From IMG/VR virus record IMGVR_UViG_3300023112_000011, positions 1 to 64,000 of that record: 64,000 bases of DNA; one strand, 5' to 3'. The notes beneath the pieces are model-generated. The model had not been told where the DNA came from. It did no database searches and worked only from the letters and a program-made list of their open reading frames with translations. Position 1 is the stretch's first letter. Each line of letters starts with the position of its first letter. Below, piece by piece: positions 2 to 41,907 of the stretch. Origin of the DNA: a virus. The position numbers and the translations under genes were made by a program.

Positions 2-1522
2 AAGGATGTTGCTGTCCCTGAGCCCGTATTGACCAAGGAAGCTAAGGCCGGCCTGCTGAAGCTAGCCCGCATCCGTAAGGTCGCCCAAACTCCTGAAGAG
101 ATGCAGGGCATGACGCAAGAGGCGGCTATGACCGACCCGAACGTTGTGCAGGCTATGGACTACCAGGAGATGGCTGCTGAGCGTGGAGCTCTTCAGCAGA
201 CTGTCCAAGGCATGCAACAGCAGCTCATGCAGTCTGCGCAAGCTCAACAGCAGGCTGAGCAGCAAGTTCAGCAGATGACCGCCAACACCGAGGCCCTCCA
301 AGGACAGCTCGAGCAGGCCAACGCCGGTCGCCAACAGGCGATGGAGCAGGCCGTGATGGCTAAGGATCAGGCGCTCACCGAGGTGGTCAATCAGCAGCAG
401 CACCGTCAGCAGATTATGCAGACAGCTGACCAGCTGGCGATGCAGCTCAAGCAGGTTGCTGCTACGAGCCCCAACGAGGCAATGGCTCAGCAACAGCAGC
501 AACAGGCCATGGCCGCCGAAGCACAGGGTGGTGGAGTTCCGCAAGGTGGCTCGGCCAAAGCGCAGCAGGAGGCCCAGGAGGCCCAGCAAGCTGGTGTCAA
601 TGCCCAGGTGCAGGGTGAGCAGGCCCAAGCTGCTCAACAGCAGGACGCAGCCAAGCAAGAGCAGGCTGCGGCTATGCAGCAGCAAGGGGGTGCTCAGCCG
701 GGGCAGGGAGCGGATCCAACCGCTGCGCAGGATCCTGCGGCTGCTCAGGCTGAACAGCAACAGCAAGGTGCCGCTGGTGCCCCTATGCCCAAGCAGGGCG
801 CCGACACGGTAGCCGAAGCTGCTATTCGAATACTAGAAAAGCGCGCAGGCAGCGTCAGTTCCGCGTACAAGCTCGGGAGAGTCGAAGCGGGCATCAAGAC
901 GCTGGCAAAAGAGTTGGGCGTGAAGGCCGAGAAAATCTCCACGAAAGGCCTGTCTCTTCCAACTCGGGCCGCCTACCACGTAGGCAAGCACCGGAACAAG
1001 TATCTGGCGGGTGCGGGAGGCGGCGTCGGGGTTGGTGGTGTAGCGCTTGCGGCGAAGAAGTTGAAAGAACGAAAAGAGAAGCACGCTCACGAGAAGACCG
1101 CAGCTCCGCTGGGTATTGGCGGTCGGTTAGCTTACACCGCCGGTGGGGCCGCTCTTGGTGCGGGACACGCTGCCGCTGAGCAGGCCACACACCGAAGGAA
1201 GTTCAACAAGAACCAAGCGTCCAACGACGAGATTGATCGTCGAGCGGACCAAGCGGCCGCACTAGCGAAAGGTCGGCGGAACCCGACTTATCTCAACAAG
1301 CTTCGTTACTCTACGGCCAGGTACAAAGCTGACCTCGAGCAAGCTGACCGGCAACATCCCGGTGGGGCTATCGCTCGAGGCGCTGCCAAGGGTGCCATCA
1401 TTGGTGGTCTCGGAGGAGGTGCTGCCCACAGTCTCGGTGGTTGGGTCAAGGCGTTGGCCAAGAATCAATCGGCGGGGAAAGCGGCGGCAAAGGCGGCAGC
1501 AAAAGCTGCCAAAGCGCAGTAG
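2..1522 (+). CDS. Gln/Ala/Gly-rich virion protein, 5' end cut by window
   Basis: The reading frame is open to the left edge, so the true start is outside; a TTG at 29 is only the first internal start-like codon. Roughly residues 40-270 are an extremely Gln/Ala-rich, probably coiled-coil stretch. After about 270 come a basic region and three Gly/Ala-rich hydrophobic segments resembling glycine zippers, ending in an Ala/Lys tail. The composition, and the position in front of other glycine-zipper proteins and the tail sheath, suggest a virion protein, perhaps one packaged and ejected with DNA. That role is inferred; no named family is recognised. Confidence 0.75.
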   Translation, partial: KDVAVPEPVLTKEAKAGLLKLARIRKVAQTPEEMQGMTQEAAMTDPNVVQAMDYQEMAAERGALQQTVQGMQQQLMQSAQAQQQAEQQVQQMTANTEALQGQLEQANAGRQQAMEQAVMAKDQALTEVVNQQQHRQQIMQTADQLAMQLKQVAATSPNEAMAQQQQQQAMAAEAQGGGVPQGGSAKAQQEAQEAQQAGVNAQVQGEQAQAAQQQDAAKQEQAAAMQQQGGAQPGQGADPTAAQDPAAAQAEQQQQGAAGAPMPKQGADTVAEAAIRILEKRAGSVSSAYKLGRVEAGIKTLAKELGVKAEKISTKGLSLPTRAAYHVGKHRNKYLAGAGGGVGVGGVALAAKKLKERKEKHAHEKTAAPLGIGGRLAYTAGGAALGAGHAAAEQATHRRKFNKNQASNDEIDRRADQAAALAKGRRNPTYLNKLRYSTARYKADLEQADRQHPGGAIARGAAKGAIIGGLGGGAAHSLGGWVKALAKNQSAGKAAAKAAAKAAKAQ

Positions 1523-1531
1523 GAGGCGGTC

Positions 1532-2335
1532 ATGGATATCTTTGAGCAAGAGTATGCCCAGCGTGGTGCGACCGCTTCTGATCAATTCGAGAAGCTCGCT
1601 GCCGAACTCGACGGCGCTAACGTAATCAACAAGGTGAATCCGCTGGGTTGCGACAACCAGCCGGGTGGCACGGATGCCAAGTCTCTCGAGGCGGGGCTTC
1701 GGATTGTTGAAAGTCGACGTGCCGGCCGAGGGAAGATCACCAGATTGGTGGAGGAGAAGCACCCGAGTCTCCGATATTCAGTCGACCGAGACTCCTCACC
1801 TATCATCAGCTCCATGCGGTCCCCCAAGATGGGCGACCCCAACTCTGCGATGCGGATGAAGACCGCGGCTCTCGAAGAAGTTGATCCGCCTGTTCAGGAT
1901 TTCAGTGGCGGTTTTGCGGATACCATCGCCAAGTTGGGCTCCGAGGGGCAGCTTCGTACACTCGATGGGTGGCGTCCCATCAAGATTGCTGAGAGTCAGG
2001 ATCAGTACGTTGCAAATGTTGGACGGGAGGCTAGGCGTCTCGGGGGCACGCTAGGTGCCGGAGCAGGTGGGTTACTTGGTGCGGCTGCTGGGGGAGCTAT
2101 TCGAGGAAGGAAAGGTGCCCTCATCGGTGGTGCGGTTGGCGGTGCCGGTGGGTTGCTCGCGGGTCGTGCGGGTCTAGGGGCTTTCGCCGAGAACAAGGCG
2201 CGTAAGGTGCCTGCGGGAACACGTAGGGCGGCAGATCGTGTCAACGCAATGCACGACAAGTACATGGCGGGGAGCATTTCCAAGAACCGATACGAGGCCG
2301 CGATGAACAACTTCGTGGAGAAGCATAGGAAGTAG
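1532..2335 (+). CDS. Glycine-zipper virion-module protein
   Basis: The gene encodes 267 residues from ATG 1532, with a strong AGGAGG-type ribosome site overlapping the previous stop. The N-terminus contains DQFEKLAAEL, a loose relative of the tag in the proteins starting at 3221, 3790 and 8732. Residues about 170-215 form a long Gly/Ala zipper (repeats such as GAGAGGLLGAAAGG and LIGGAVGGAGG) able to insert into or pack against membranes; a basic C-terminal region follows. Likely a minor virion or ejection protein by context. Function is not established. Confidence 0.75.
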   Translation: MDIFEQEYAQRGATASDQFEKLAAELDGANVINKVNPLGCDNQPGGTDAKSLEAGLRIVESRRAGRGKITRLVEEKHPSLRYSVDRDSSPIISSMRSPKMGDPNSAMRMKTAALEEVDPPVQDFSGGFADTIAKLGSEGQLRTLDGWRPIKIAESQDQYVANVGREARRLGGTLGAGAGGLLGAAAGGAIRGRKGALIGGAVGGAGGLLAGRAGLGAFAENKARKVPAGTRRAADRVNAMHDKYMAGSISKNRYEAAMNNFVEKHRK

Positions 2336-2339
2336 CTCA

Positions 2340-3224
2340 GTGCTTCAAGTCAAGAACGTTTCTGTGAAGTCCCTCGATGTGGATCACCTGGATATCTTCT
2401 GGGAGATCGGGGATACCTACGACAGCCCGCACGACTACACGTTCATCGTGGAGCGGAGCGAGTCCGCCATGGGGCCATTCGACCAGGTGAGTGATCCATT
2501 CTCGGACAAGTACCTCTTCCGTGACGTCCTCACCAACCTCTTTCACCGCACAAGGCAGTACTGGTACCGCATCCGTGTCACTCGGAAGTCAGACAGCAAC
2601 ATCGTCTACTCCGAGCCGGCCAGGCGTGAAGCTCGGCCCGACTTGGTAGCTGAAGAAGTTCGGCGTCTCGAGACGCTGGTCTTCCGTGAGCACATTGGTC
2701 GGGTCTGCTGGGTCTTCCCAGTCCGGACCTTCGGACAGCGCTGCCCCGATTGTTACGACCCGGTCAGCCGTGCGAGGATACGCTCGAACTGTTTGACCTG
2801 TTACGACACCACTTATGTTCGGGGTTACCTCGACCCCATTGCCGCACCTATCCAGATTGACCCGGCCCCGGCCGTTACGCAGCAACACGCAACCAACGAG
2901 AGCCAACAGCAGAACGCTACGGCGAGGTTGCCCTATTTTCCGCCGCTGAAGCCGAGAGACATACTGGTTGAGGCGGAAAATATCAGATGGTCGGTGACCA
3001 CGGTCAGTGCGACGAGGAGACTTCGATCGATCTTGCACCAAGAGGTTCAGATTCATCGAATCCCCGAGTCGGATATAGAGTTCAGACTCCCGATCAACAT
3101 TGCGGACCTCGAGGAGCTCGAGACGAGTCCGAATAGGGAGTTCACGAACCCTCACCACCTCGAGGCGACAGATGGTGCTGAGTGGTGGGATCTCAGTAAC
3201 AAAGGACACGGGTACGACCAATGA
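2340..3224 (+). CDS. Virion protein with FN3-like domain and zinc ribbon
   Basis: GTG start at 2340, 294 residues. Residues about 1-95 read as a fibronectin-III-like beta sandwich (WEIGDTYDSPHDYTFIVERS, later YWYRIRV). A CPDC...CLTC pair near residues 135-155 should bind zinc. The C-terminal half is beta-rich without a family I can name. It lies five bases after the previous gene and overlaps the next by ATGA, inside the tail module, so a neck, baseplate or connector role is plausible but inferred. Confidence 0.75.
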   Translation: MLQVKNVSVKSLDVDHLDIFWEIGDTYDSPHDYTFIVERSESAMGPFDQVSDPFSDKYLFRDVLTNLFHRTRQYWYRIRVTRKSDSNIVYSEPARREARPDLVAEEVRRLETLVFREHIGRVCWVFPVRTFGQRCPDCYDPVSRARIRSNCLTCYDTTYVRGYLDPIAAPIQIDPAPAVTQQHATNESQQQNATARLPYFPPLKPRDILVEAENIRWSVTTVSATRRLRSILHQEVQIHRIPESDIEFRLPINIADLEELETSPNREFTNPHHLEATDGAEWWDLSNKGHGYDQ

Positions 3225-3793
3225 TCGACTTCTCCGCATTTACCGACGAGATGCAGAAGATTGCTTACGCCGGCCGAGGGGCGCTCATTGGTGGTGTCGG
3301 AGGTGCTGGTTTGGGTGCTGCGATCGGAGGGCTCACAGGTCCCGAAGAGGGTAGGAAGAAACGTGCCCTCATAGGGGGCCTGGGGGGTGCGGCTCTTGGT
3401 GCTGGTGGTGGTGCTTTAGGCGGGCAAGTTCTCAAAGAGCGTGGTGCGCGGGCTGCGCGTATCGCAAAAGATAGAAGTCACTGGGCGGCTCGTGACGCAG
3501 CGTCTCGCACAAAGGCAAATCAGGCGCACCAAGCGCGGCGAGCAGCGGACCAAGAAGACGTAGCGATACGGATGGAAGAATCCGCCAAGCGGAGAAAGGC
3601 CAACATCGCTAAGGAGACAGCCGACGCCGCAAAGGAGAAGGCTGTAAAGAAGACTGAGAGCGCCAAGAAGCTAGATGCGGAACTGAAACCTGTACGAGAC
3701 GCATTGTGGGAACGAGAAAACCGCTACTACAGGGCCAACTACGGTAGGGACATGAAACCTGAAGAGACTCCGGCATTTTTGAGGGATCTATGA
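3221..3793 (+). CDS. Tagged glycine-zipper protein (copy A)
   Basis: 190 residues, ATG start overlapping the upstream stop. It begins MIDFSAFTDEMQKIA, nearly the same N-terminal tag as the next gene and the gene at 8732. Residues about 20-70 are two glycine-zipper blocks (LIGGVGGAGLGAAIGG and LIGGLGGAALGAGGGALGG). The remainder is a highly charged, Arg/Lys/Ala/Glu-rich probable helix. The pattern suggests a small protein targeted to the virion by its N-terminus that then acts on membranes. This is inference; no catalytic motif is visible. Confidence 0.75.
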   Translation: MIDFSAFTDEMQKIAYAGRGALIGGVGGAGLGAAIGGLTGPEEGRKKRALIGGLGGAALGAGGGALGGQVLKERGARAARIAKDRSHWAARDAASRTKANQAHQARRAADQEDVAIRMEESAKRRKANIAKETADAAKEKAVKKTESAKKLDAELKPVRDALWERENRYYRANYGRDMKPEETPAFLRDL

Positions 3794-4689
3794 TCGACTT
3801 CAGCGCATTCAGTGACGAGCTCGTCAAGATCGCTGAGAAAGGGCGGGATCTCTCAACGGGAGAGAAAGCCGCCGTCATTGGTGGTGCCGCTGTCGGTTCT
3901 GGCGCCGCAGCGCCTACTGGAATGCGTATTGGTGAGGCGATCAGGCACAGCCGAAAGATAAATCGAGCCGTGAAGGCCGGCGAGAAGAGTGTCACGCTTC
4001 GGTACTTGCGGGCACCTGGGTATGTCGCTCCCGCGGTAGGAGCTGCGCTTGTAAGCGGGGGAGTGATGGCGGCGGCAGTGCAATACCGCAAGAAGAGGCT
4101 CCAAAAGAACGCAGCCCAGGATGCTGGGGTGGATCACGCACGGTTTGCTGGTGGGATCACTGGGGTCTCGAGTGGCGCAGGATTGGGCTATACTTTAGCG
4201 CGCCGTGGCGGTATGGGGCAAACTGGTAAGTTACTCTCAAGTGCGGTTGGTGCGGCTCTGGGGTACACAGGTGGCCGGGCGGTTGGTGGGGCCGTTGCTA
4301 AGGGTAAGCATCATGAATTAGCTCGTGCCGCAGCCAAGGAGTATGTGGAAGCTAACGAGAATGATCCTATGGTGCGGGGGTTCCCAAAGACCTCCGAGGA
4401 TAAGAACCGGCGGATGAACAAGGAGAAGATCAAGCAGTTCCTCGGCAACACTGCCCTGGTCGCTGGTGGGACAGGTATCGGCTACGGCGCCTCCGAAGTG
4501 GTACGCCACGGTCTGAAGAAGTTCCGCGGTTCTCCCGGTAGCAAAGTCCGCCAAATAGCATCGATCGCGTTGCCCATGGTCGGTGGGGCGTCGGTGATCG
4601 GTTACAAGAGGCAGCTCGACAAAGAGAAGAAGCGCAGCCTTGAGGATGCGTACCAGCGTGGGGTAACGAAGGGTCAACGGGATGTCTGA
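3790..4689 (+). CDS. Tagged glycine-zipper protein (copy B)
   Basis: 299 residues, ATGA overlap with the previous gene. It starts MIDFSAFSDELVKIAEKG, matching the tag of the neighbouring gene. At least four Gly/Ala-rich hydrophobic stretches (near residues 25-45, 75-95, 115-165 and 220-275) alternate with basic linkers. Several segments could span or pack in membranes. The tandem position after copy A suggests an ancient duplication followed by divergence. Virion ejection protein is the working hypothesis. Confidence 0.75.
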   Translation: MIDFSAFSDELVKIAEKGRDLSTGEKAAVIGGAAVGSGAAAPTGMRIGEAIRHSRKINRAVKAGEKSVTLRYLRAPGYVAPAVGAALVSGGVMAAAVQYRKKRLQKNAAQDAGVDHARFAGGITGVSSGAGLGYTLARRGGMGQTGKLLSSAVGAALGYTGGRAVGGAVAKGKHHELARAAAKEYVEANENDPMVRGFPKTSEDKNRRMNKEKIKQFLGNTALVAGGTGIGYGASEVVRHGLKKFRGSPGSKVRQIASIALPMVGGASVIGYKRQLDKEKKRSLEDAYQRGVTKGQRDV

Positions 4690-5518
4690 CGAAGTCATTC
4701 CCTCAGCGCCACTGAGCCCTGGCGCCTTGAGTAGCTGGTCTACCAGCCCGCTCCGCCATCTTCAGCGGTTGACTCTGCTGTTTTTGCGTGAGCTCTTCAA
4801 GGCCGCACCCGAAGGATACTGGCACTGGGAAGACGACGAGGAGAAGACCGAGATCATCATTACCCGGGATGTGCCTGTCGAAGAGGCCGTGGTGATGAAG
4901 CGACCTGTGATCGCCCTTGTCCGCTCAGCCGTTGGTTGGAGTGGGTTGGGTATGGATCAGCTTCTCCACGAGGATGTCAGGACTGGCGAGCGTACACACG
5001 TCGATATGATGTCGGGCAACCTCACATTCAACTGCCTCGCACGCGTACCGTCTGAGGCTGAAGATATCGCCTGGTTGGTGGCTTCTCATGTGTGGCTGCT
5101 CCGGCGGGTACTACTCAAGCTCGGGTTCCACGACATCGGTCAACGGTGTCAGGTGTTCGCCCCTTCTCCACCGGGATCGCTTGTACAGGGTGCTGCGAAA
5201 GAGGAAACGATCAATGTTCCCGCAGTCACCCCGTTCCAGTTCAGTTGGGGCGCAAAGGTGCTCGAAGAAGACGTCCCGGTACTTCAAGCCGTTGAGACTC
5301 GTCTTACAGCAGCTGTTGGCGACGCGTACAAACCGACGAACATAAGAATGTCAGAAGGTTGGGGAACTGGGGTTTCGCAAGTAGATGGCAATCCTGTAGA
5401 ATTTCAAAACATAAAGGGCAATGTCCGGCCGCCTTCTATTAGAGGACGTCCGGCCCAAGTGACCGAGGTCCTCAGTAGCCAAAAGGGCGATCCGGCCGAA
5501 GTCATCGTGAAAACCTGA
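4682..5518 (+). CDS. Putative neck/tail-completion protein upstream of sheath
   Basis: 278 residues, overlapping the previous gene by 8 bases and ending 15 bases before the sheath gene. The N-terminal two thirds look like a mixed alpha/beta globular domain (TLLFLRELF, then EEKTEIIITRD); the C-terminal 80 residues are extended. In contractile-tail phages the gene before the sheath often encodes a tail terminator or completion protein, and that is the best guess. No sequence motif proves it. Confidence 0.65.
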   Translation: MSDEVIPSAPLSPGALSSWSTSPLRHLQRLTLLFLRELFKAAPEGYWHWEDDEEKTEIIITRDVPVEEAVVMKRPVIALVRSAVGWSGLGMDQLLHEDVRTGERTHVDMMSGNLTFNCLARVPSEAEDIAWLVASHVWLLRRVLLKLGFHDIGQRCQVFAPSPPGSLVQGAAKEETINVPAVTPFQFSWGAKVLEEDVPVLQAVETRLTAAVGDAYKPTNIRMSEGWGTGVSQVDGNPVEFQNIKGNVRPPSIRGRPAQVTEVLSSQKGDPAEVIVKT

Positions 5519-5533
5519 CGAGGGGTATGAACA

Positions 5534-8500
5534 ATGAGCGCAATCCCTGAACTTCCGCAGCCCGGGGTCAAGGTCATCCAGGAATATTCCGCTGCGGCTC
5601 CGGTCGTGGTTGTCCCTTCGCTGGTCCCTTGCGTCATCGGTGCTTGCTACGAGATCCATGAGCTCGAGGACGACGATGGCACTCTCAACAGTGACATCCT
5701 TGTGAGTGGGCCTGTTGTGGTCACCGCACCGAATGACGAGTCTAGCTACACGTCTGGCGTGTCGGCTACGACTCTCACGTTGCGGGTCGGTGGGGGCGTC
5801 GAACAGACGTTCACGATGCCGACTACAATAGTGACGTTGACAGCGGCGCAGCTTGCTATCGCCATCAACGGAGCCACTCCTGCACCGTCGGGCTTCGCGG
5901 CCTACGTGTACAACGATGGGTCGGTCAACTACCTCGAGCTACGCACAACGGGGTCCGGAGCACTTCAGAGCATCCAGATCACTGGCGGCACCCTGCTCGC
6001 CAACCCGGTTGTTGGCCCCGGCTGGACCCCCGGCTGGACCTACTACGGTCTGGGTTCCTACATCCAAGACGGGGTCTACCTCCAGCAGTCGGCTTTCCCG
6101 GATCCGAGAGGCAACCTCACGGAGCTCGACATCCAAGAGACGACCATCCGGGCGTTCCTCGACCTCGGCACTGAGACTCGAGAGATTCTCGACTCCGAGT
6201 CGTTCCTGCGCCGGGACAGCTACTACTCCGGTCCGTCGACTTACGGCGTCACTCCGCTCGACGATGGGGATGGGGATCAAACCACGCCATACATCGATCT
6301 GCTGAACGCGGCCGGTGGGGCGGCCGATTTGCTCGCGTCCCCTGGACCCGCAAACGTCACCAGCAACGGTAACGTTGATTTCTCGACTACGGATACTCTC
6401 GATATCCACGGCAAGACGCTCATCCTTCAGCTCAACGGCGGTGGCAAGCAGACCGTCACCTTCGTTGGTGATCCAGTCGTCAGCAACGATGGGGCAACCT
6501 TCAACTATGCCGCCGCGCACGCCTCCGAGCTCACAGTGGAGGTCAACGGTGTCAGCGCAGTACTCGTCCTAGCCGGTACTGACTTCGCGGCTGTCCTCGC
6601 TTCGGTGAACGTGGCATCGCAGGCAGCGTTCGGGATTGATATCGCGTTCGATTCGGACGTCAACGGGAATCCGTGGACTTCGGCCCTCCACTACATCGGT
6701 TTGGTGTACGGTGGTGACCCGGCCGCAGCCGCGGCAGCGACTGCCGACAACAAGATTGTGGTTACGGCTACCGGTGGGACGGACAACAACGAAGTCTTCA
6801 CCGACGCCAGCATGCCCTACAATCAGGTACACCAGCCTGCCGCTCTCGGTCCCCGGGATGCCGTATGGGACCAGATCAATGCGCTCATCACCGACCCGAG
6901 TCCCTTTGCCACTCTGGTGAGTACTGACCTCTATCTCGAAGCGGGCACGTCTGGTGCGGAGTCGAAGATCGAAATCGACGCACTGTCGACGGCGCTGGGT
7001 ACCGCCCTGCTCGACCTCACGGCTGGCACCTACTTCGGTGCCCCCTTCCTCGCTCGAGTGGGTGATTACATCTACGGAGACGGCACCTATCTCGGCATGA
7101 TCACCGAGGTGCATTCTGGCGGAACCACCGGACGGGTCAAGGTCGATACCGAGCAGCTTCTGACTCTGCGCAAGACGGCGTGGTACATCGTCGCCAAGAA
7201 CCTCGAGACGGTACCGTCGGCCCAGTACGGCAATACGGTGCCGACACCCGATCTCATCATCGACACCAACGGTGACGTTCACATCAAGCAAGACTTCTTG
7301 CGCGACACTGTCGGGGCACCGGTTGGTACGGCCGCAGTCTCAATCTACCTGATGTACAACGCGCTTCGTCTCGACGTGACTTCGCAGGCGACAGACCAAG
7401 CGCTCTTGTCCTTCGACAACGTTGATGACCTCGAGAGCGCTCTCGGCCCAATCACGCAGGACAACCCCTTGTCTTACGGATTGTTCGTCGCTATGTCGAA
7501 CGCTCCTGGTATTCGAGTCTTTGGTCTTGGTGTTCACGCAATCACCGCCGACAAGCCCTATGGGACGTTGGTGGCCTTCCAGTCGGCCCTCGATTACCTG
7601 AAGGCCAAAGAGGTCTACGCCTGCGCCACGATGACATCGGACCTTGATGTAGCCACCATCCTCCAAACGCACGTCAACACGATGAGCTCGCCCAACCAGA
7701 AGGCCGAGCGTATCGGTATCTTCCACCTCGGCACGCCGACAAGGAAGATGGACACCATCATGGTGTCGGGCAATGATGGGGACACGTCTGTTGCGGGCTC
7801 AGAGTTCGACACCAAGATCCCCACGCTGTCCGCGCAGCTTCTGGCGGCTGGGCTTGATCCCGCCACCTTCGATGCCGATGACGGGGTGTTCCTCGACATC
7901 AGCGATGACTCCTACGTCTGGAACATCGTCGGGCCCCTGGTCGATGGTACGAAGGTCACCATCAACAAGGTATTCTCGCCTGGGCAGAACGATGATGCTT
8001 TCTATGAAGAACTTGCTACTTTCCCGACGGTAGTCTCCGACAGCTTCTCGGTGAGCGTACGTGGTGCGGCGATTACCACCACAACCGAAGAGGTTGAGAC
8101 CGTCTACGGTCGCGGTCAGAGTTTCGCTGACCGGAGGATGTGGATGATGCAGCTCGACCAGCTGTACGCCACAATCGGTGGTATCACCCAGGCCATCCCT
8201 GGTTTCTTCATGGGAGCCGCCAAAGCTGGCCAGGTAGCCGGGCTCAACCCAGCGCTGCCGATGACCAACAGGCCCATTGCGGTCTTCACGGCCGTCACCG
8301 GTACCAATGATCGGTACGGTTCTTCGCAGCTCAACCAGATGGCGGCCGGCGGCGCTGATCTCATCGTGCAGGAGACGGACGGGGCAGCCCTGACGTCGCG
8401 CATGCAGGTCACCACCAAGATGAGTACTATTGCGGAACGAGAGCAGTCGATCGTCAAAGCCGTTGACTATTGCGCGAAGTTCTATCGAACGAGCCTGCGT

Positions 8501-8722
8501 CAGTACATCGGCTCTTACAACATCTCCCAGAGTTTCTTGGACACCTTGTCCACGGTTGTTGAGGGGCTCAGTCGTTGGCTGGTCGAAGAGGGTCAGGTAG
8601 TTGCTGGAGCTCAGATGAGCAACCTGCTCCAGGACGAGGATCAGCCGGATACGGTACTGGCGGATGTTTCGATCACGGTGCTTTATCCGGCCAACTACAT
8701 CCAAATCACCCTCCTGGTGTAG
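5534..8722 (+). CDS. Tail sheath protein
   Basis: 1062 residues, ATG start. The N-terminus PQPGVKVIQEYSAAAPVVVV matches the PGVYVxE-S-type opening of contractile sheath subunits, and the end YPANYIQITLLV resembles the family's C-terminal strand, which links neighbouring subunits. Sheath subunits form the outer contractile cylinder of the tail. The protein is long for the family (T4 gp18 is 659 residues); the extra length sits in Asp/Gly/Thr-rich beta domains at residues about 60-480, probably on the outside of the sheath. The tail tube gene lies 650 bases downstream with one small tagged protein between, which supports the call. Confidence 0.93.
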   Translation: MSAIPELPQPGVKVIQEYSAAAPVVVVPSLVPCVIGACYEIHELEDDDGTLNSDILVSGPVVVTAPNDESSYTSGVSATTLTLRVGGGVEQTFTMPTTIVTLTAAQLAIAINGATPAPSGFAAYVYNDGSVNYLELRTTGSGALQSIQITGGTLLANPVVGPGWTPGWTYYGLGSYIQDGVYLQQSAFPDPRGNLTELDIQETTIRAFLDLGTETREILDSESFLRRDSYYSGPSTYGVTPLDDGDGDQTTPYIDLLNAAGGAADLLASPGPANVTSNGNVDFSTTDTLDIHGKTLILQLNGGGKQTVTFVGDPVVSNDGATFNYAAAHASELTVEVNGVSAVLVLAGTDFAAVLASVNVASQAAFGIDIAFDSDVNGNPWTSALHYIGLVYGGDPAAAAAATADNKIVVTATGGTDNNEVFTDASMPYNQVHQPAALGPRDAVWDQINALITDPSPFATLVSTDLYLEAGTSGAESKIEIDALSTALGTALLDLTAGTYFGAPFLARVGDYIYGDGTYLGMITEVHSGGTTGRVKVDTEQLLTLRKTAWYIVAKNLETVPSAQYGNTVPTPDLIIDTNGDVHIKQDFLRDTVGAPVGTAAVSIYLMYNALRLDVTSQATDQALLSFDNVDDLESALGPITQDNPLSYGLFVAMSNAPGIRVFGLGVHAITADKPYGTLVAFQSALDYLKAKEVYACATMTSDLDVATILQTHVNTMSSPNQKAERIGIFHLGTPTRKMDTIMVSGNDGDTSVAGSEFDTKIPTLSAQLLAAGLDPATFDADDGVFLDISDDSYVWNIVGPLVDGTKVTINKVFSPGQNDDAFYEELATFPTVVSDSFSVSVRGAAITTTTEEVETVYGRGQSFADRRMWMMQLDQLYATIGGITQAIPGFFMGAAKAGQVAGLNPALPMTNRPIAVFTAVTGTNDRYGSSQLNQMAAGGADLIVQETDGAALTSRMQVTTKMSTIAEREQSIVKAVDYCAKFYRTSLRQYIGSYNISQSFLDTLSTVVEGLSRWLVEEGQVVAGAQMSNLLQDEDQPDTVLADVSITVLYPANYIQITLLV

Positions 8723-8731
8723 GGGGGCTCC

Positions 8732-9340
8732 TTGATCGACCTTGCCGCATTCTCCGATGAGCTTCAGAAAATTGCTGCCAGACGGCAAGCAGGTGGGATG
8801 CTCTATTCGGGGGTCGGCATCCCGCTCAACGCTAACGCGAACAAGCAAATGTCAAAGAACGACTGGAAGCAGACAGCTGTTCGGCTTGCTACGGATAACC
8901 GCAAACGCCTTGTAGGCTCCCGTTTGGCCGGTGTTGCTACTCTCGGGGCCTCCAAGGCGGGTATCCACCCGCTCGTTCAACTTGGTCTACAACTGGCCAC
9001 CAAACCGGCGGCGGGTAAGTTGTGGGACTCCTTCAGTTCGATGATGGGCACAAGGGTGAACACCCGGATGGCCAAGAAGATTGTGCAGACTAACGCACCC
9101 GGTACCCCGATCTTTGCCATCAAACAACCTATCCCTGGCGGTTCACTTTATGTGCCGCCGGTTGGTAGGGACAAGTCTCTGCGCAAGCTCATCACCACGT
9201 CTTACGGCGAAGCAATGAGCAAAAGAGACTTGAATACGTTACAGAGCAGGGGTGGGGTGTTGTTGGCGCCACTGGATCGAAAGGCTCGAACCGGTCTTGG
9301 GCAAGTCAGGCTCAAGTCCAAATTCAGAAGAGTCACGTGA
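8732..9340 (+). CDS. Tagged virion-module protein (copy C)
   Basis: 202 residues from TTG 8732, preceded by a G-rich ribosome site. The first residues read IDLAAFSDELQKIAARR, the same tag as the genes at 3221 and 3790. The TTG start is supported because it places the tag exactly at the N-terminus. The body is basic and mixed alpha/beta, with no glycine zipper as clear as in its relatives. Located between sheath and tube, so a virion protein is likely; its role is unknown. Confidence 0.75.
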   Translation: MIDLAAFSDELQKIAARRQAGGMLYSGVGIPLNANANKQMSKNDWKQTAVRLATDNRKRLVGSRLAGVATLGASKAGIHPLVQLGLQLATKPAAGKLWDSFSSMMGTRVNTRMAKKIVQTNAPGTPIFAIKQPIPGGSLYVPPVGRDKSLRKLITTSYGEAMSKRDLNTLQSRGGVLLAPLDRKARTGLGQVRLKSKFRRVT

Positions 9341-9346
9341 TATGAT
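9341..9346 (+). promoter_or_regulatory. Possible extended -10 promoter for tail tube gene
   Basis: TGATATGAT at 9338-9346 fits an extended -10 element (TGnTATGAT) 24 bases before the tube start. No convincing -35 box is seen. A separate promoter would suit a protein needed in many copies. Confidence 0.35.
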
Positions 9347-9369
9347 ACAACAAGGTAGGAGGCCGTAAG

Positions 9370-10098
9370 ATGGCAGGACCTTTCGAAGGCTGGAACCCCA
9401 TGCAGCATTACGTCCAAAAAGGTCTCGTGGACGGACGGTTCATGGCGGGTGGGTTGACGATGCTGGCGGCGGGGCCTCCACGGCTCAGCCAACTTGCTGC
9501 TAGTGTTGGTGCGTCGGCAGCGAGCTCATCCGGCGAGTCGGACATCGTGTACCCCTTGGGTATCACCCAGAATGTCAATCTCCAACAAAACAAGCAGTTC
9601 ATGCGTGTTTGGGAGCTCGGCTCTGAGCGGAGCTACTGGATTGGCGGTCGGTCCACAGGCACGATCTCTCTGTCGAGAGTCTACTACGACGGGGCGAGTC
9701 TCCTGCGCGTGCTCTACGCCTACTACCAGGATGTGGTCGGCGATGTTCAGGTACCTTGGGTGTTCCCGAACCAAGGTGCGGCCAACATGGCCAACCCGCA
9801 TGACGTGATCATCCCGCCAGGGTACGAGAACCTGTACATCAACCTCGCGTCGGATTTGTTCAACCAGCCGATCGGGATGATGGTGTACATGCGCAACTCG
9901 AACCTCGACACCATGGGTGCTGTGTACCTCGAGGCCTGTGTCATCCCGAATCATTCATTCAACACGGATGCGCAGGGCACCATCGTTCAGGAGTCCTGTG
10001 GTCTCCAGTTCGAGCGAGTTGTCCCAGTCAACGTTGGCGGCATCGCTCTAGTCAGCGGTCTCGTCAGCGCCGTGAGTGGCATCGCCGAAGCTGCGTAG
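9370..10098 (+). CDS. Tail tube protein
   Basis: 242 residues, ATG start after AGGAGGCC. The middle part (IVYPLGITQNVNLQQNKQFM, then the RSYWIGGRSTGTISLSRVYY region) has the strand pattern of phage tail tube proteins, which form stacked hexameric rings inside the sheath as the channel for DNA. Position directly after the sheath block is the usual order. Beta-rich, no membrane segment except a small hydrophobic C-terminus. Named from context and strand pattern rather than an exact motif. Confidence 0.75.
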   Translation: MAGPFEGWNPMQHYVQKGLVDGRFMAGGLTMLAAGPPRLSQLAASVGASAASSSGESDIVYPLGITQNVNLQQNKQFMRVWELGSERSYWIGGRSTGTISLSRVYYDGASLLRVLYAYYQDVVGDVQVPWVFPNQGAANMANPHDVIIPPGYENLYINLASDLFNQPIGMMVYMRNSNLDTMGAVYLEACVIPNHSFNTDAQGTIVQESCGLQFERVVPVNVGGIALVSGLVSAVSGIAEAA

Positions 10099-10106
10099 GA
10101 GGCCTG

Positions 10107-12083
10107 ATGGCACGGCCCGTGACGAGGGCTGACTGGCTGCTCGAAGAGAGCCAGCAGCACTTCCAGAAGCTCGCCTCGTTAGCGTTGAGAGCTGAAGGCG
10201 CCCAGCAAATGGGGAAGATCGCTGCTCGGCGGATAATGCTGCCGAGAGGCGGTATCTCCAAGCTGGGTGCCGTGCGGTCTCTGACAAAGACGGCCGTCCT
10301 TGCCACGGCGATAAATGTGGCGAAAGGCGGGGTCAAGGCGGTCGATACCGCGGCTGATGTGGCCAAGGGCGCGACTACGTTGGCCAAGGGGGTCAAGGGT
10401 GTGGCGAAGGCCGCCCCACCTGTTCAGCCCAGGCTGACGGCGAAGACTCAAGTATCTGGCCCACCGCGGATGCCTACTCCCGCGCCGAGAGTAAGGGCGA
10501 AGACTCAGGTATCCGGTGCCCCGCAAGGCATGCCCTACACACCTCCCGCCGCCCCTGCACCAAGAATGAGGGCAAATACCCAAGTATCCGGTGCCCCGCA
10601 GGGCATGACTCAGCCGCCAAGGGCTCTTACAGTTGCTGAAGGCGCTCCTCGGGGGATGCCCAGTCCTACCGCCGGTGTTGCTCAACGTCCCGTAGTCTCT
10701 GCGGGCAGCGCGGCGCCTACACCCGTGTCTGCTCCCCCACCGACGGCTGCTCCCCCAGTAGGCGCCGAGCAGCAGAAACTCATCGACGCGCTCCGTTCGG
10801 GCGGAATGCCGGCTGATGACGCCGCAGCACAAGCTAAGAGTCTGTACGGTATGGACAGTAGTGCGTCCTTCGGTACTGGGCACAAGGGGCGCACCCCAAC
10901 ACTCGGTAGGGTGAATACCCCAAATCCCGCTAGCACAGGTATGCCTACCGGTGCAGGGACTCCTAGAAGTGTCAGTGCCGCAAACTCACCATTGGGCGGT
11001 GTGAAAGCGCCAAAGCCAACTCCGCCCAAGGCGGAAACGCCAAGGGGAGTGACCCCAGCCGGTAAACGCCTGGAAGGGTACGCCAAGGAGCTCGAGGGGA
11101 TGGGGTCCCGCACCCTATCTAACGAGGTCGGCAAGCGAAAAGACTTGGTCAACCTATTGAAGGAGCACGGGTCAAAGCCCAAAGTTGTTCAAATAGCAGA
11201 ACAGCGCGTTCGAATGGCCCAGAGTAGTCTGAAGAACGCTGGTGGTGCACCAGCAGCTCCTGCATCCCCAAATGCCCTAACTAGCCCGCCGCGCGTTGTT
11301 CCTGCTCAAGCCGGTCCACCTCGCGTCGCTCCTGCTCAAGCCGGCCCACCTCGCGTCGCTCCTGCTCAAGCCGGCCCACCGCCACCGACGTTGATGCAGG
11401 CGTCTCCCGCGCCGGCAGCTTCGATGACACCGACACTACCGGTCAAGGGTCCACCTGCATTACCGTCTGGTGGTCAGGGTCCAGGTCAACTCGCTGCTGG
11501 ACCGCCAAGGGCCGCACCATCTGTCGCACAACAAGCAGCAGCCGGTCCGCCGCCATTAGCATCTGGCGGTCGTGGTCCAGGTCAACTCACGCAGCCTCCG
11601 ATGGCGCCATCTCGGGCTGTTCAACAGCAACGACCGGCGATGGTGTCCGCGGAAGCTCGGGCGAACCCAGTGATGCAGCCCGCACCTGCAACAGCACCAG
11701 CCGCACAGACCCCACAAGCTGCTGCATCACCAGCAGCGTCAATAGATGATCGGCTTTCGGCCATGCAGCAGCGAAATAAGCTGCTGGAAAGCATGCGCGA
11801 GGGAGATCGGGCCGGTATGGGCCTGTCAGCGGCAGCGCCCGCAGCGGCAGCGCCCGCAGCGGCAGCGCCCGCAGCGGCTACAGAAGCGGCTCCAGGGATG
11901 CTGGGTAGGGTCAGGGGTCTGGCCGGCCGCATTCCTGGTCCAATAAAGTACGCCCCGCACGCCATAGCCGGTGGTCTCGGACTCGGCGCGGCCGGTCTCG
12001 CTGTTGGCGGAGGCATGGCCCTCCAGCAGTCGGGAGCTCCCTACCGCTACGGTGGTGGGGCTCCGATGCCTGGATCGTACTAA
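10107..12083 (+). CDS. Pro/Ala-rich repetitive virion protein
   Basis: 658 residues, ATG start after GGAGGCCTG. The N-terminal 45 residues are helical and basic (SQQHFQKLASLALRAEG), loosely like the tags of other proteins in this module. Residues 95-200 carry three spaced copies of KTQVSG or NTQVSG. Residues 400-600 are Pro/Ala/Gln low complexity with short tandem repeats. The last 60 residues hold a Gly/Ala-rich hydrophobic segment. The next gene is on the opposite strand, so this ends the tail module. Possibly a long fibrous or ejected virion protein; unproven. Confidence 0.7.
   Translation: MARPVTRADWLLEESQQHFQKLASLALRAEGAQQMGKIAARRIMLPRGGISKLGAVRSLTKTAVLATAINVAKGGVKAVDTAADVAKGATTLAKGVKGVAKAAPPVQPRLTAKTQVSGPPRMPTPAPRVRAKTQVSGAPQGMPYTPPAAPAPRMRANTQVSGAPQGMTQPPRALTVAEGAPRGMPSPTAGVAQRPVVSAGSAAPTPVSAPPPTAAPPVGAEQQKLIDALRSGGMPADDAAAQAKSLYGMDSSASFGTGHKGRTPTLGRVNTPNPASTGMPTGAGTPRSVSAANSPLGGVKAPKPTPPKAETPRGVTPAGKRLEGYAKELEGMGSRTLSNEVGKRKDLVNLLKEHGSKPKVVQIAEQRVRMAQSSLKNAGGAPAAPASPNALTSPPRVVPAQAGPPRVAPAQAGPPRVAPAQAGPPPPTLMQASPAPAASMTPTLPVKGPPALPSGGQGPGQLAAGPPRAAPSVAQQAAAGPPPLASGGRGPGQLTQPPMAPSRAVQQQRPAMVSAEARANPVMQPAPATAPAAQTPQAAASPAASIDDRLSAMQQRNKLLESMREGDRAGMGLSAAAPAAAAPAAAAPAAATEAAPGMLGRVRGLAGRIPGPIKYAPHAIAGGLGLGAAGLAVGGGMALQQSGAPYRYGGGAPMPGSY
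11298..11388 (+). repeat. Tandem 30-bp coding repeat
   Basis: Three near-identical 30-base units (CCTCGCGTCGCTCCTGCTCA plus the next ten bases) encode PPRVAPAQAG repeats in the Pro/Ala-rich protein. A second low-complexity tract, of 15-base units coding Ala-Ala-Ala-Pro-Ala, lies at 11829-11878. Likely to expand and contract. Confidence 0.8.
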
Positions 12084-12131
12084 CTAGCTAAAACGAGCTC
12101 GGCGTCCTCATGACAGGAGCTCAGATGTCTT

Positions 12132-12155
12132 ATCACACCAAGATCGTGTGATTTT
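12132..12155. terminator. Bidirectional terminator between convergent genes
   Basis: ATCACAC-CAAGATC-GTGTGAT is a 7-bp stem with a 7-base loop followed by T residues on the plus strand. It lies between the plus-strand gene ending at 12083 and the minus-strand gene ending at 12155, where a shared terminator is expected. Confidence 0.55.
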
Positions 12156-12676
12156 CAGCCCTTCTGCTTCTCCCACCAACGGTCGACGCTTTTCGTGCCC
12201 TCAAGAACATCGAGATCAGGAATGGTGGTTATTCCGGGCATACCCGGCATGTCGGAAAGACTCGTGTTGAGACTTGGGGTAGGTGGGGGTGTAGTTCTTT
12301 TGGCCTTTTGGCTGTGGCGTACCCCTGAGAAATAGATGTTGGCGAGCCCCTCGAGGCGCTCGTCGGTCTCCCCCTCTTCCGCGGCCAAGTGGAGGTAGTC
12401 AAGCTCCTCGTCTTCCCACATCTGGGGCTGGGATAGGGCGAGCTCGACAAACTCCTCCTCGGTGAGGTGCAGCTGGTCGAACAGTGTAGGTCGGCGGTGC
12501 TCAACCTCCGGCGGCCGCTCGTTTGGGTCTGGTGGGGCCGGTGGTTTCGCGTCGAAGTAGCTGTGGAGCTCCTCTGTGGTGCGCGGCTTGAAGTACGCAA
12601 GCATCCCTTCCCAGCTTTCTGGAGCCTCTGAGGGTTTTGCTGTCCAGAACGTCGGGTCAGTCTTTTTCGTCGTCAT
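12155..12676 (-). CDS. Hypothetical acidic protein, last gene of minus operon
   Basis: 173 residues, ATG at 12676 overlapping the upstream gene by 20 bases. Acidic, Pro-rich, with one short helical region (LTEEEFVELALSQ). No family recognised. Last of four overlapping minus-strand genes (13634 to 12155), probably co-transcribed. Confidence 0.6.
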   Translation of the reverse strand: MTTKKTDPTFWTAKPSEAPESWEGMLAYFKPRTTEELHSYFDAKPPAPPDPNERPPEVEHRRPTLFDQLHLTEEEFVELALSQPQMWEDEELDYLHLAAEEGETDERLEGLANIYFSGVRHSQKAKRTTPPPTPSLNTSLSDMPGMPGITTIPDLDVLEGTKSVDRWWEKQKG

Positions 12677-29966: not shown

Positions 29967-30145
29967 AGGAGTACACCTACGTGATCGAGACGCTGAAGGG
30001 TGACGTGCTGGTCAAGGCGAAGAACATCGCTGAGGCTCGGGCCGTCGCCAAGAAGAAATACAAGGTCAAGCATCCGAAGTGTGTGCGAAGAGATCAAGTC
30101 TACGTCTGGTGCGCGAAGTGCGACAGCAAGCCCTGCTGTTGCTGA
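29963..30145 (+). CDS. Small Cys-rich basic protein
   Basis: 60 residues, GTG start (GTGA overlap). Lys-rich body with helix EARAVAKKKYKVK and a C-terminal CAKCDSKPCCC that may bind metal. Unknown. Confidence 0.55.
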   Translation: MKEYTYVIETLKGDVLVKAKNIAEARAVAKKKYKVKHPKCVRRDQVYVWCAKCDSKPCCC

Positions 30146-40505: not shown

Positions 40506-40825
40506 CAAAACGGACGGAAAACAGTGTGCGTTTGTGCGGGTTCGTAGGGGATTACATCAAGCTCCCCGATGGAGACGGGCCGGCGCGATTTGACATCATG
40601 ACCAGTGACCGACTCAACACTCTCGAGGGTGAGATCATCTCAACGCACGACTGGCACACCATTGTCACGTCGGACCTCGAGTTTGTCAGGTCGAATGTAC
40701 GCACGGGGGCGCTGATCAAGATAAGTGGGAGGATTTCGAGTCGCAAGACGGGCAACGGTCCTCAGATCGAGATTGCCGCACGTGAGCTCGAGCTCGTGAC
40801 CGGCCCCAAACGGAGAAGGGGGTGA
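40502..40825 (+). CDS. ssb: SSB-like OB-fold protein
   Basis: 107 residues, GTG start (GTGA overlap with the exonuclease). The order NSVRLCGFVGDYIKL, HDWHTIVTSD, VRTGALIKISGRISSRK, IEIAARELELV follows the strand pattern of bacterial SSB: V-x-L-x-G, T-x-W-H/F, GxxIxVxG, and a last strand of hydrophobic residues. It lacks the long acidic tail used by cellular SSB to recruit partners, ending in basic residues. Probably binds single-stranded DNA during replication or recombination. Confidence 0.75.
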   Translation: MTKRTENSVRLCGFVGDYIKLPDGDGPARFDIMTSDRLNTLEGEIISTHDWHTIVTSDLEFVRSNVRTGALIKISGRISSRKTGNGPQIEIAARELELVTGPKRRRG

Positions 40826-41907
40826 GGGTAAGTTGGTTCGAGGATGGTGAGGGTGATGGGTCGGACGATTACGGTCTGATTCCCGGCGAGGAGTACAACA
40901 ACAGGTTTGATCAGCTGAGGACAGCGAACTGGGCCGATTGGTTCGACGAGGATGAGGTGTTCGACCGCCACTTCCTCGCTTGGGAGCCCGAGGGCGAGCC
41001 CTGGTACGTAGTAGAGACTGGAGAGAAGAAGCACCGCCAGAAGGTGCTGCGCAAGCTGCGCAAGTTGGAGGAGCAGCGTGTTCCTCGTGATGTGTTCAAT
41101 GGCCTGTTCCTGGACAAACTTGACTCGCCCGAGGGGAGAGCGGCGACCGCGGCTTTCGGCGGTTCGTACATCAGGGATCATCTTCGTGAGGTAGCGTTCA
41201 GCAGAAACATCATCCCGCCGTCTAGGGTGGTGAAGAGTGATGTGGCGTTGGTCAATCGTGACGCTCTTGTCACGATCGAGGAGATCGAGCCCGAAAGCCG
41301 GGCCATGGCGATCAACATGCGAGGTCGGCTCACTGCGCGGGTGATTCGTGCTCCGCAAGACGAGGTCCCCTTCTTCTCGATCTCGCCGAAGCGTTTTGAG
41401 GAGTACGAGCGAGAGCTGCTGTCCTATCGTGCGAAGAGGGGAGAGCTGATGGAAACGATCAACCGCATCGAGGATTTGCCACCCGAGATGCAGGATACCG
41501 CACACCGACACCTGCTTCTCTACGGCAACGTCTTCATCTACAACACCGAGAAGGGGCCGGTTCTTCTCGACCCGGTCAAGCTGACCACGCTTCAGGTGCC
41601 CAAGGGTGCCGAGTACGGTACACCCGCTTGGTTACCCCACGTCAAGGCGCTCCTGGATAACGCGCTCGTAGACAAGGAGTTTCTCAGAGTAGTTGACGCC
41701 GACGGTAACCAGGTCAAGCGCCAAAGATTTGAGGCAATCAAGGAAGAGGATATCCAGCGTAAGATTGCGAAGGACTGGCACCTAGCTGGTCGCATCGGCG
41801 ATACGACGCTATTGAAGGGAAGTGAGGATGGACAGAAAGAAGCTGAGGGAGCACTGCGAGAGGGTGGTGCTAGCGCGAGCGGACAAGAAACACCTGACCC
41901 TGCATGA
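40822..41907 (+). CDS. Hypothetical protein after SSB
   Basis: 361 residues, GTG start. Acidic N-terminus with DWFDEDEVFDRHF, then a Lys/Arg-rich helical region and an alpha/beta C-terminal half. Overlap with SSB suggests a replication-linked role. No motif recognised. Confidence 0.65.
   Translation: MRVSWFEDGEGDGSDDYGLIPGEEYNNRFDQLRTANWADWFDEDEVFDRHFLAWEPEGEPWYVVETGEKKHRQKVLRKLRKLEEQRVPRDVFNGLFLDKLDSPEGRAATAAFGGSYIRDHLREVAFSRNIIPPSRVVKSDVALVNRDALVTIEEIEPESRAMAINMRGRLTARVIRAPQDEVPFFSISPKRFEEYERELLSYRAKRGELMETINRIEDLPPEMQDTAHRHLLLYGNVFIYNTEKGPVLLDPVKLTTLQVPKGAEYGTPAWLPHVKALLDNALVDKEFLRVVDADGNQVKRQRFEAIKEEDIQRKIAKDWHLAGRIGDTTLLKGSEDGQKEAEGALREGGASASGQETPDPA

Follow-up and report, generated by a model that had tools for sequence, protein, structure and literature searches.

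A short N-terminal tag shared by unrelated proteins of uncultured large phages, with features of a head-targeting propeptide

The window analysed here comprises the first 64,000 nucleotides of the IMG/VR virus record IMGVR_UViG_3300023112_000011, and forms the first part of a record of 110,652 bases. Three of its genes, which start at 3221, 3790 and 8732 and flank the gene of a tail sheath, encode proteins with the N-terminal consensus MID(F/L)(S/A)AF(S/T)DE(L/M)xKIA, here called the tag, followed by bodies that diverge downstream (Table 1). A longer record, G001 (167,832 bases), overlaps this one and is 100% identical to it where the two were compared, namely in the sheath, the gene at 9370 and the 3790 protein. 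A preliminary description of this DNA had pointed to near-identical N-termini of 15 residues on otherwise wholly different proteins, and both halves of that statement hold: the three N-termini score 33.6-37.4 bits as tags, against at most 9.2 bits for shuffled N-termini, and the three bodies have no BLAST match to one another. Comparison of ten window proteins with Pfam and PHROGs gave little besides weak glycine-zipper matches, which lay below the Pfam cut-off.

Table 1. Features of the window discussed in the text (positions refer to the window; aa, amino acids).
Feature	Position	Strand	Remarks
Gene 1, truncated by the record start	29..1522	+	Complete form in G001 has 533 aa
267-aa glycine-zipper protein	1532..2335	+	QFEKLA at residues 18-23 (K-L-A at 1592-1600)
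Tagged gene 1	3221-3793	+	190 aa, ATG start
Tag 1, MIDFSAFTDEMQKIA	3221..3265	+	Residues 1-15 of the 3221 protein; putative cleavage after residue 15
Body 1	3266..3793	+	175 aa; glycine-zipper segment, then a charged stretch
Tagged gene 2	3790-4689	+	299 aa, ATG start
Tag 2, MIDFSAFSDELVKIA	3790..3834	+	
Body 2	3835..4689	+	284 aa
Tail sheath	5534..8722	+	Distant match to phage G gp178 (annotated tail sheath), Vibrio D69 and Salmonella Arash gp236
Tagged gene 3	8732-9340	+	202 aa, TTG start
Tag 3, MIDLAAFSDELQKIA	8732..8776	+	TTG start
Body 3	8777..9340	+	187 aa
Probable tail tube	9370..10098	+	Assigned by its position after the sheath only; without K-x-A
658-aa Pro/Ala-rich protein	10107..12083	+	HFQKLA at residues 18-23

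The three bodies differ in the relatives that they have. Among the compared records, body 1 has relatives in G001 only. The C-terminal ~90 residues of body 2 are 28-44% identical to proteins of related phages, every one of them tagged, so that the tag was retained while the body diverged. Body 3 shares a stretch of ~80-115 residues with proteins of three other records; the relative in G006 is tagged, whereas those in G005 and G008 have N-termini that differ from the tag and keep LQKIA and IKKLA, respectively. The TTG start at 8732 had been taken as an argument against chance. A Shine-Dalgarno-like TAGGGGGG does lie upstream of it, but the same TTG is found in G001, which is near-identical and therefore does not provide an independent case.

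Searches of complete records confirmed that the tag is a distinct N-terminal feature. The score matrix includes a few tags from the window phage and is for that reason only partly independent, and genes in the G records were called with a simple script. Only these three of the 140 predicted proteins of the 110,652-base record score as tags, and the best match past residue 60 reaches 1.5 bits. Among the 210 proteins of G001, nine clear tags (27.8-37.4 bits) and two that are degenerate (18.4 and 15.7 bits) were found, with at most 7.9 bits for shuffled N-termini and, again, 1.5 bits for the best match past residue 60. Its nine clear tags are those of the three window genes and of a tandem cluster of six at 30.1-32.6 kilobases (kb), which adjoins large late genes; the cluster and its neighbours gave nothing useful against Pfam or PHROGs. 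By strand, the tagged genes of G001 number 0 of 39 on the plus and 12 of 175 on the minus strand, an uninformative comparison. Eight, nine and eight proteins exceed their own shuffled maximum in G002, G005 and G009, respectively.

The same holds on a wider scale. Viral contigs contain at least 120 stretches that match FxDEL(CTS)xKIA, compared with 15 matches of the reversed pattern in the whole collection. Nor does the motif lie at random positions: in a sample of 130 tag matches from viral contigs, 119 of the matches listed have a start codon no more than 15 codons away, as against 2668 of 5928 random codons in long frames (45%) and 6 of the 15 reversed-motif matches. The residue before F was unconstrained in the search, yet 95 of 103 proteins have A, S or G there, as do 67 of the 71 body clusters with a locus reference (against a background of 23%). 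Those variable positions of the tag that were tested carry 1-2 bits (0.8 at +1), and after KIA the information drops to 0.3-0.5 bits. When cellular genome contigs were searched for ATG, seven codons and the motif, 16 matches were obtained; they fall into four sequence families, which we take to be HslU-like (8), PhoU-like (4), acyl-CoA-hydrolase-like (3) and one other, and are not spread over many bodies. The tag is not a cellular motif.

The bodies that carry the tag are diverse. The 136 tagged proteins yielded 133 bodies of at least 30 residues and 82 BLAST clusters, a set that still includes a few chance matches. A Pfam scan of 67 body representatives (E 0.001) gave 15 families with a single member each, among them an SNF2-type helicase of 720 aa (L078 766-2925), a C92-type amidase of 195 aa, of which a relative of 212 aa fell just below the cut-off, MazG, TsaE and DUF6321; a transketolase subunit and a fragment of a T4-type portal are probably chance matches to the motif. 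Glycine zippers, which had been noticed in several window proteins, are indeed enriched, being found in apolar stretches of 36 of the 82 tagged clusters and of 84 of the 820 proteins without the tag that served for comparison. There is no such enrichment of classical membrane helices (4 of 82 tagged bodies and 62 of 820 others). The tagged helicase has a homologue in Salmonella phage Arash, gp217 (38% identity), which is represented by 38 unique peptides in virion mass spectrometry and, by spectra, is listed among the more abundant virion proteins (PMC10585845). The tag is absent from Pseudanabaena phage PA-SR01, which came up in the search for a cultured phage with the tag and matches the tagged helicase from residue 9 onwards. 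The structural region of PA-SR01 (L212 22800-25084, 31305-32006 and 49207-49959) has proteins that start MRKSANF, MKHFANF, MKYANI and MQHFAKF, which may represent a further short tag at the N-terminus of differing bodies.

Taken together, these data give good support to reading the tag as a shared N-terminal sorting signal, since 82 body clusters carry it and conservation stops sharply after KIA. Where such a signal would lead is suggested by the last residues of the tag, because K-x-A recurs in the head proteins of these phages. In what follows, the bounds of the head module were set by us and the label scaffold-like was assigned by position. N-terminal K-x-A is kept among orthologues of head proteins that are unrelated to one another: the capsid protein (EGKEKIA), the head maturation protease (LxKxAA), a scaffold-like protein (MxKIA), a 321-aa protein (EKMA) and a 670-aa protein of unknown function (EKLA; G001 163232). 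Of all conserved residue pairs two apart at positions 4-50, K-A ranks first, the next pair reaching three families, and it is conserved in 6 of 22 head-module families against 2 of 40 elsewhere. Several members of one head-module family (L026 13179-13817 = G001 153176-153817, minus strand) begin MNPVxEFLxxE...KxA, a start that is presumably closer to the T4 targeting peptide than the tag is.

The capsid protein, in 48 distinct N-terminal forms, has K-x-[AS] in 48 of 48 and strict K-x-A in 45, and its single K-x-A is the N-terminal one. A second capsid-like copy is encoded in the window at 40822-41907, a 361-aa protein with 59% identity to residues 4-147 of the major capsid protein and an unrelated N-terminus. 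The protease is predicted from matches to PHROG 18299 in five of six records (E 1.2e-7 to 0.0012; G000 lacks that region). Its homologues in D69, Arash and phage G match the same PHROG (6.6e-7, 2.1e-6 and 2.6e-19), and match a PHROG of unknown function better; the G001 protease matches the Arash homologue at 5e-39. LxKxAA precedes the protease domain in six of seven aligned sequences, in which one His and one Ser are invariant and may be catalytic. In G009, a relative of 192 kb, the head protease frame has 935 aa (L053 8910-11714 = G009 148907-151714, minus strand), and its second region matches PHROGs named minor head protein, DarB-like antirestriction and endolysin.

Internal copies of the motif follow a similar distribution. 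The head-core module of four genomes contains 189 K-x-A, compared with 86.5 expected from shuffling (z 12.2), the highest z among the 400 pairs at spacings 1-4. CxxC comes close behind (z 12.0), with an excess that is general to whole genomes; LxK, IxK and MxK follow K-x-A at the same spacing, and EK, KT and KI (spacing 1) and KxxS (spacing 3) are high too. Two further K-x-A-rich families in this all-pairs test were chosen after their excess was known and so are not an independent test. The excess is located in the scaffold-like protein (11 vs 2.7 expected), core proteins (one of 302 aa has 9 vs 1.2), the 670-aa protein and some proteases, with up to 13 sites per protein. No excess was seen in sheath and tube (1 vs 2.5), in six large late genes (11 vs 11.0) or in a ten-protein tail set that included the portal (16 vs 17.1). 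In Arash, where 145 of 252 proteins were tested, the three proteins richest in K-x-A are gp220, gp225 and gp223, encoded just before the capsid gene. All three are listed as present in virions, gp225 by two peptides only (PMC10585845); of that virion table 114 rows were used, the row named xxxxx and Gp225.1 being excluded. Outside the head-core module, the strongest K-x-A excess was found in a 399-aa protein near the portal (L019 11278-12474; G001 11275-12474, minus strand), and it recurs in G002, G005 and G009.

The tagged genes also keep company with head genes. The same capsid protein family is encoded by 32 of 39 tag contigs of at least 60 kb (those of that length in the first 80 listed loci, minus G001, G005, G008 and G009), and by 0 of 15 control contigs, a weak comparison because 13 of these 15 are shorter than 60 kb. 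A search with the capsid family found 272 loci, of which 80 were kept, amounting to 1.05 megabases (Mb) in which near-identical phages recur. These loci contain 56 tag matches, 54 of them near a start codon, and 0 reversed matches; at least one tag is present in 28 of the 80 loci, and in 15 of the 23 that have at least 20 kb. Between the protease-side and scaffold-like genes, a small tagged or near-tagged protein, with M for F in some, is encoded in seven of seven records; the one near the scaffold-like gene of G003 ends in KIC. In G001, G002 and G008, the gene immediately preceding that of the portal has a degenerate tag, I/VDxQxDE(M/F)xKIA, and the G005 relative of this pre-portal gene keeps only EKQA, a K-x-A. 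In relatives, tagged genes are thus also found between the genes of protease and capsid protein and next to that of the portal. The preliminary description had spoken of a tail module, and the window genes do flank the sheath, but this proximity to protease, capsid, scaffold-like and portal genes means that the tagged set as a whole is not confined to the tail. It had also left open whether sorting would be to the capsid or to the tail. The head is favoured, because LxKxA recurs in capsid, protease and scaffold-like or core proteins and is not in excess in sheath, tube and the six large late genes; tail delivery is possible for some tagged proteins.

We therefore consider it probable that the tag is a head-targeting propeptide that ends in a cleavage site of the head protease. 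Sites for a head protease would be expected to show just the pattern seen for K-x-A: a single copy near the N-terminus of the capsid protein and of the protease, numerous copies in scaffold-like and core proteins, and no excess in sheath, tube or portal. The tag, which ends with this motif just where conservation ends, reads as a targeting helix followed by a cleavage site. Cleavage of the tag, about which the preliminary description had asked, is the leading inference from these sequences. The relatives of body 3, which have either the tag or another N-terminus that keeps LQKIA or IKKLA, would fit a propeptide. As to the mechanism, a short amphipathic helix with F, L and I on one face can be drawn for [ASG]-F-x-D-E-L-x-K-I-A. 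During head assembly, the tag would dock its cargo onto the scaffold or the inner capsid surface, and the activated head maturation protease would then cut after the A of [LIM]-x-K-x-A, as it would also do in the capsid N-terminus, in the protease itself and, repeatedly, in scaffold and core proteins. The released bodies (zipper proteins, amidases, the helicase) might remain in the head and be delivered with the DNA, and the zipper proteins may act on membranes. The comparisons establish the tag and its place at the N-terminus, its presence on many unrelated bodies, its association with a single capsid lineage and a K-x-A signature that is enriched in head-core proteins; docking, cleavage, head location and ejection are inferred from these. 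The helicase homologue in Arash virions is the one experimental link, and together with the zipper-containing bodies and the C92-type amidases it lends indirect support to packaging and ejection. We incline, with only slight confidence, to the broader proposal that one loading code serves a widespread lineage of large uncultured phages, [ASG]FxDELxKIA for entry into the prohead and [LIM]-x-K-x-A for release, in which the cargo is swapped freely and the code is fixed.

Several systems offer precedents. In T4, IPII and IPIII have an N-terminal targeting peptide, and short N-terminal peptides are also removed from IPI and Alt; the targeting peptide directs foreign proteins into the core. Its removal is the work of the prohead protease, an enzyme that also trims the capsid protein and the internal proteins and degrades the core, while the portal is described as unprocessed (PMC9958956, PMC5694885). 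As in T4, an N-terminal peptide of ~10-20 residues is common here to different cargo proteins, and the tagged lineage encodes a predicted head maturation protease. Unlike T4, one phage has nine clear and two degenerate tagged genes, with 82 body clusters overall, and the tag ends in LxKxA, whereas the T4 protease cuts after glutamate. By these features, and with no claim of membership in the T4 family, the tag can be likened in its working to the T4 targeting sequence. In phage P1, the N-terminal 30 residues of DarB are enough to bring a reporter into the capsid, and the authors report no consensus among Dar N-termini (PMC9024508), in contrast to the strong consensus of the tagged N-termini. 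The head proteins of SPN3US and phiKZ have N-terminal propeptides, mostly of more than 100 residues, that are cut at the protease motif AxE or SxE, and the first 15 residues of two paralogues, SPN3US gp53 and gp54, are identical (PMC5694885). The tag differs from these in being short, in its KxA motif and in being common to unrelated bodies. The [LIM]-x-K-x-A specificity would probably differ from the motifs given for T4, SPN3US and phiKZ in these sources. The head modules of Arash and Bacillus phage G include distant relatives of the capsid protein, portal and protease, the protease having GLTKQAAA in Arash and GLVKTAA in phage G; the FxDELxKIA tag was found neither in the whole Arash genome nor in the scanned 35 kb of phage G.

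A number of observations weigh against a head-targeting propeptide. The three tags of the window phage sit among tail genes, and the Arash helicase lacks the tag. Both G005 (17.3 and 29.8 bits) and G009 (15.5 bits) have matches past residue 60 that score above the shuffled maximum, and at least one of these is perhaps a mis-called start. The only solved relative of the capsid protein that we found, that of phage G in 6wkk, begins at residue 1 and displays no cleavage; it has no K-x-A at the corresponding place. Two AlphaFold2 models of the capsid protein were too poor to place a propeptide (mean predicted local distance difference test score 32 and 44). The portal (G001 6070, a relative of Arash gp204, E 5e-76) has neither an N-terminal K-x-A nor an excess (3 vs 2.8). 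Outside the head-core module, the four genomes also have slightly more K-x-A than expected (1002 vs 877); a weak excess is seen in one large late gene, 33055 (4 vs 1.3, p 0.05), and two early-side genes are enriched as well. The association of N-terminal K-x-A with module is weak in G001 (p 0.026; 5e-5 in G002 and 2e-6 in G005). Of the 142 other Arash proteins, 93 are also positive in mass spectrometry. Neither a virion proteome nor an N-terminal sequence for the tagged lineage was found in the literature searched.

An alternative is a permanent, uncut docking helix that would anchor proteins to the lumen of the tail tube, the neck or the inner capsid, with LxKxA as an interaction motif. Such a helix would agree with tags that flank the sheath and probable tube genes, and with the degenerate tag that adjoins a gp5-like hub gene in G001. 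We regard it as unlikely, given that conservation ends immediately after the A, and that K-x-A precedes the protease domain and recurs many times in scaffold-like and core proteins, but is not over-represented in sheath, tube and portal. It is improbable that the tag is instead the remnant of an N-terminal coding segment that was copied before many genes, for instance for expression, and has no sorting role. The near-identity in DNA of two neighbouring G001 tags, at 30122 and 30298, does point to recent copying of the segment. However, the nine tags of G001 use differing synonymous codons (AGT, AGC, TCT, TCC and TCA for Ser, GAC and GAT for Asp), which indicates that the peptide is what is conserved, and with the peptide kept over 82 body clusters and many contigs this argues for selection on the peptide. 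The small glycine-zipper bodies, and a tag that we take to resemble LSxxELxxIxGG leaders, could also suggest a leader of the double-glycine type, as on small bacteriocin-like peptides that a C39 peptidase transporter exports. This is very improbable: in the window the tags end in KIA followed by YA, EK and AR, without GG or GA, and the bodies include a 720-aa helicase. The idea was dropped when Peptidase_C39 was found in none of six records, some of them incomplete, while the control matched in 8 of 14 genomes. Chance or composition probably accounts for a few matches, such as the transketolase subunit and the portal fragment among the 67 scanned, but for the tag family as a whole it is already refuted by the reversed controls (15 stretches vs at least 120, and 0 vs 56 in the same 1.05 Mb).

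If the tag is indeed a head-targeting propeptide, the proteins that many uncultured phages are likely to inject, most of them without a known family, could be listed with one regular expression. It would also give a candidate specificity for the head protease, and could provide a transferable label for loading foreign proteins into heads of very different phages, as the T4 sequence was. No description of the tag motif or of the loading-code idea was found in the collection of open-access papers searched, with subscription papers and preprints outside its scope. What is new here is the sequence of a probable capsid-targeting-like propeptide, which is used on a wide scale, and its probable protease motif.

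Looser versions of the tag had been proposed for the proteins at 1532 and 10107 and for gene 1, and these did not hold up. Their scores of -1.0, -5.2 and, with the N-terminus taken from G001, 4.6 bits would be expected by chance 1.3, 4.7 and 0.3 times per genome, respectively. As tags the three N-termini are within chance, although each has K-x-A in its N-terminal region. In G001, gene 1 has 36 extra residues with AAFFVELKDVA, tag-like and below significance, and then LTKEA, of which K-x-A is conserved in six of six aligned members. One relative of the 1532 protein was found, in G002, with QFRKLA. Relatives of the 10107 protein in other phages have K-L-A in two of four and K-L-G in the other two, and the window protein itself contains tandem PPRVAPAQAG-like repeats.

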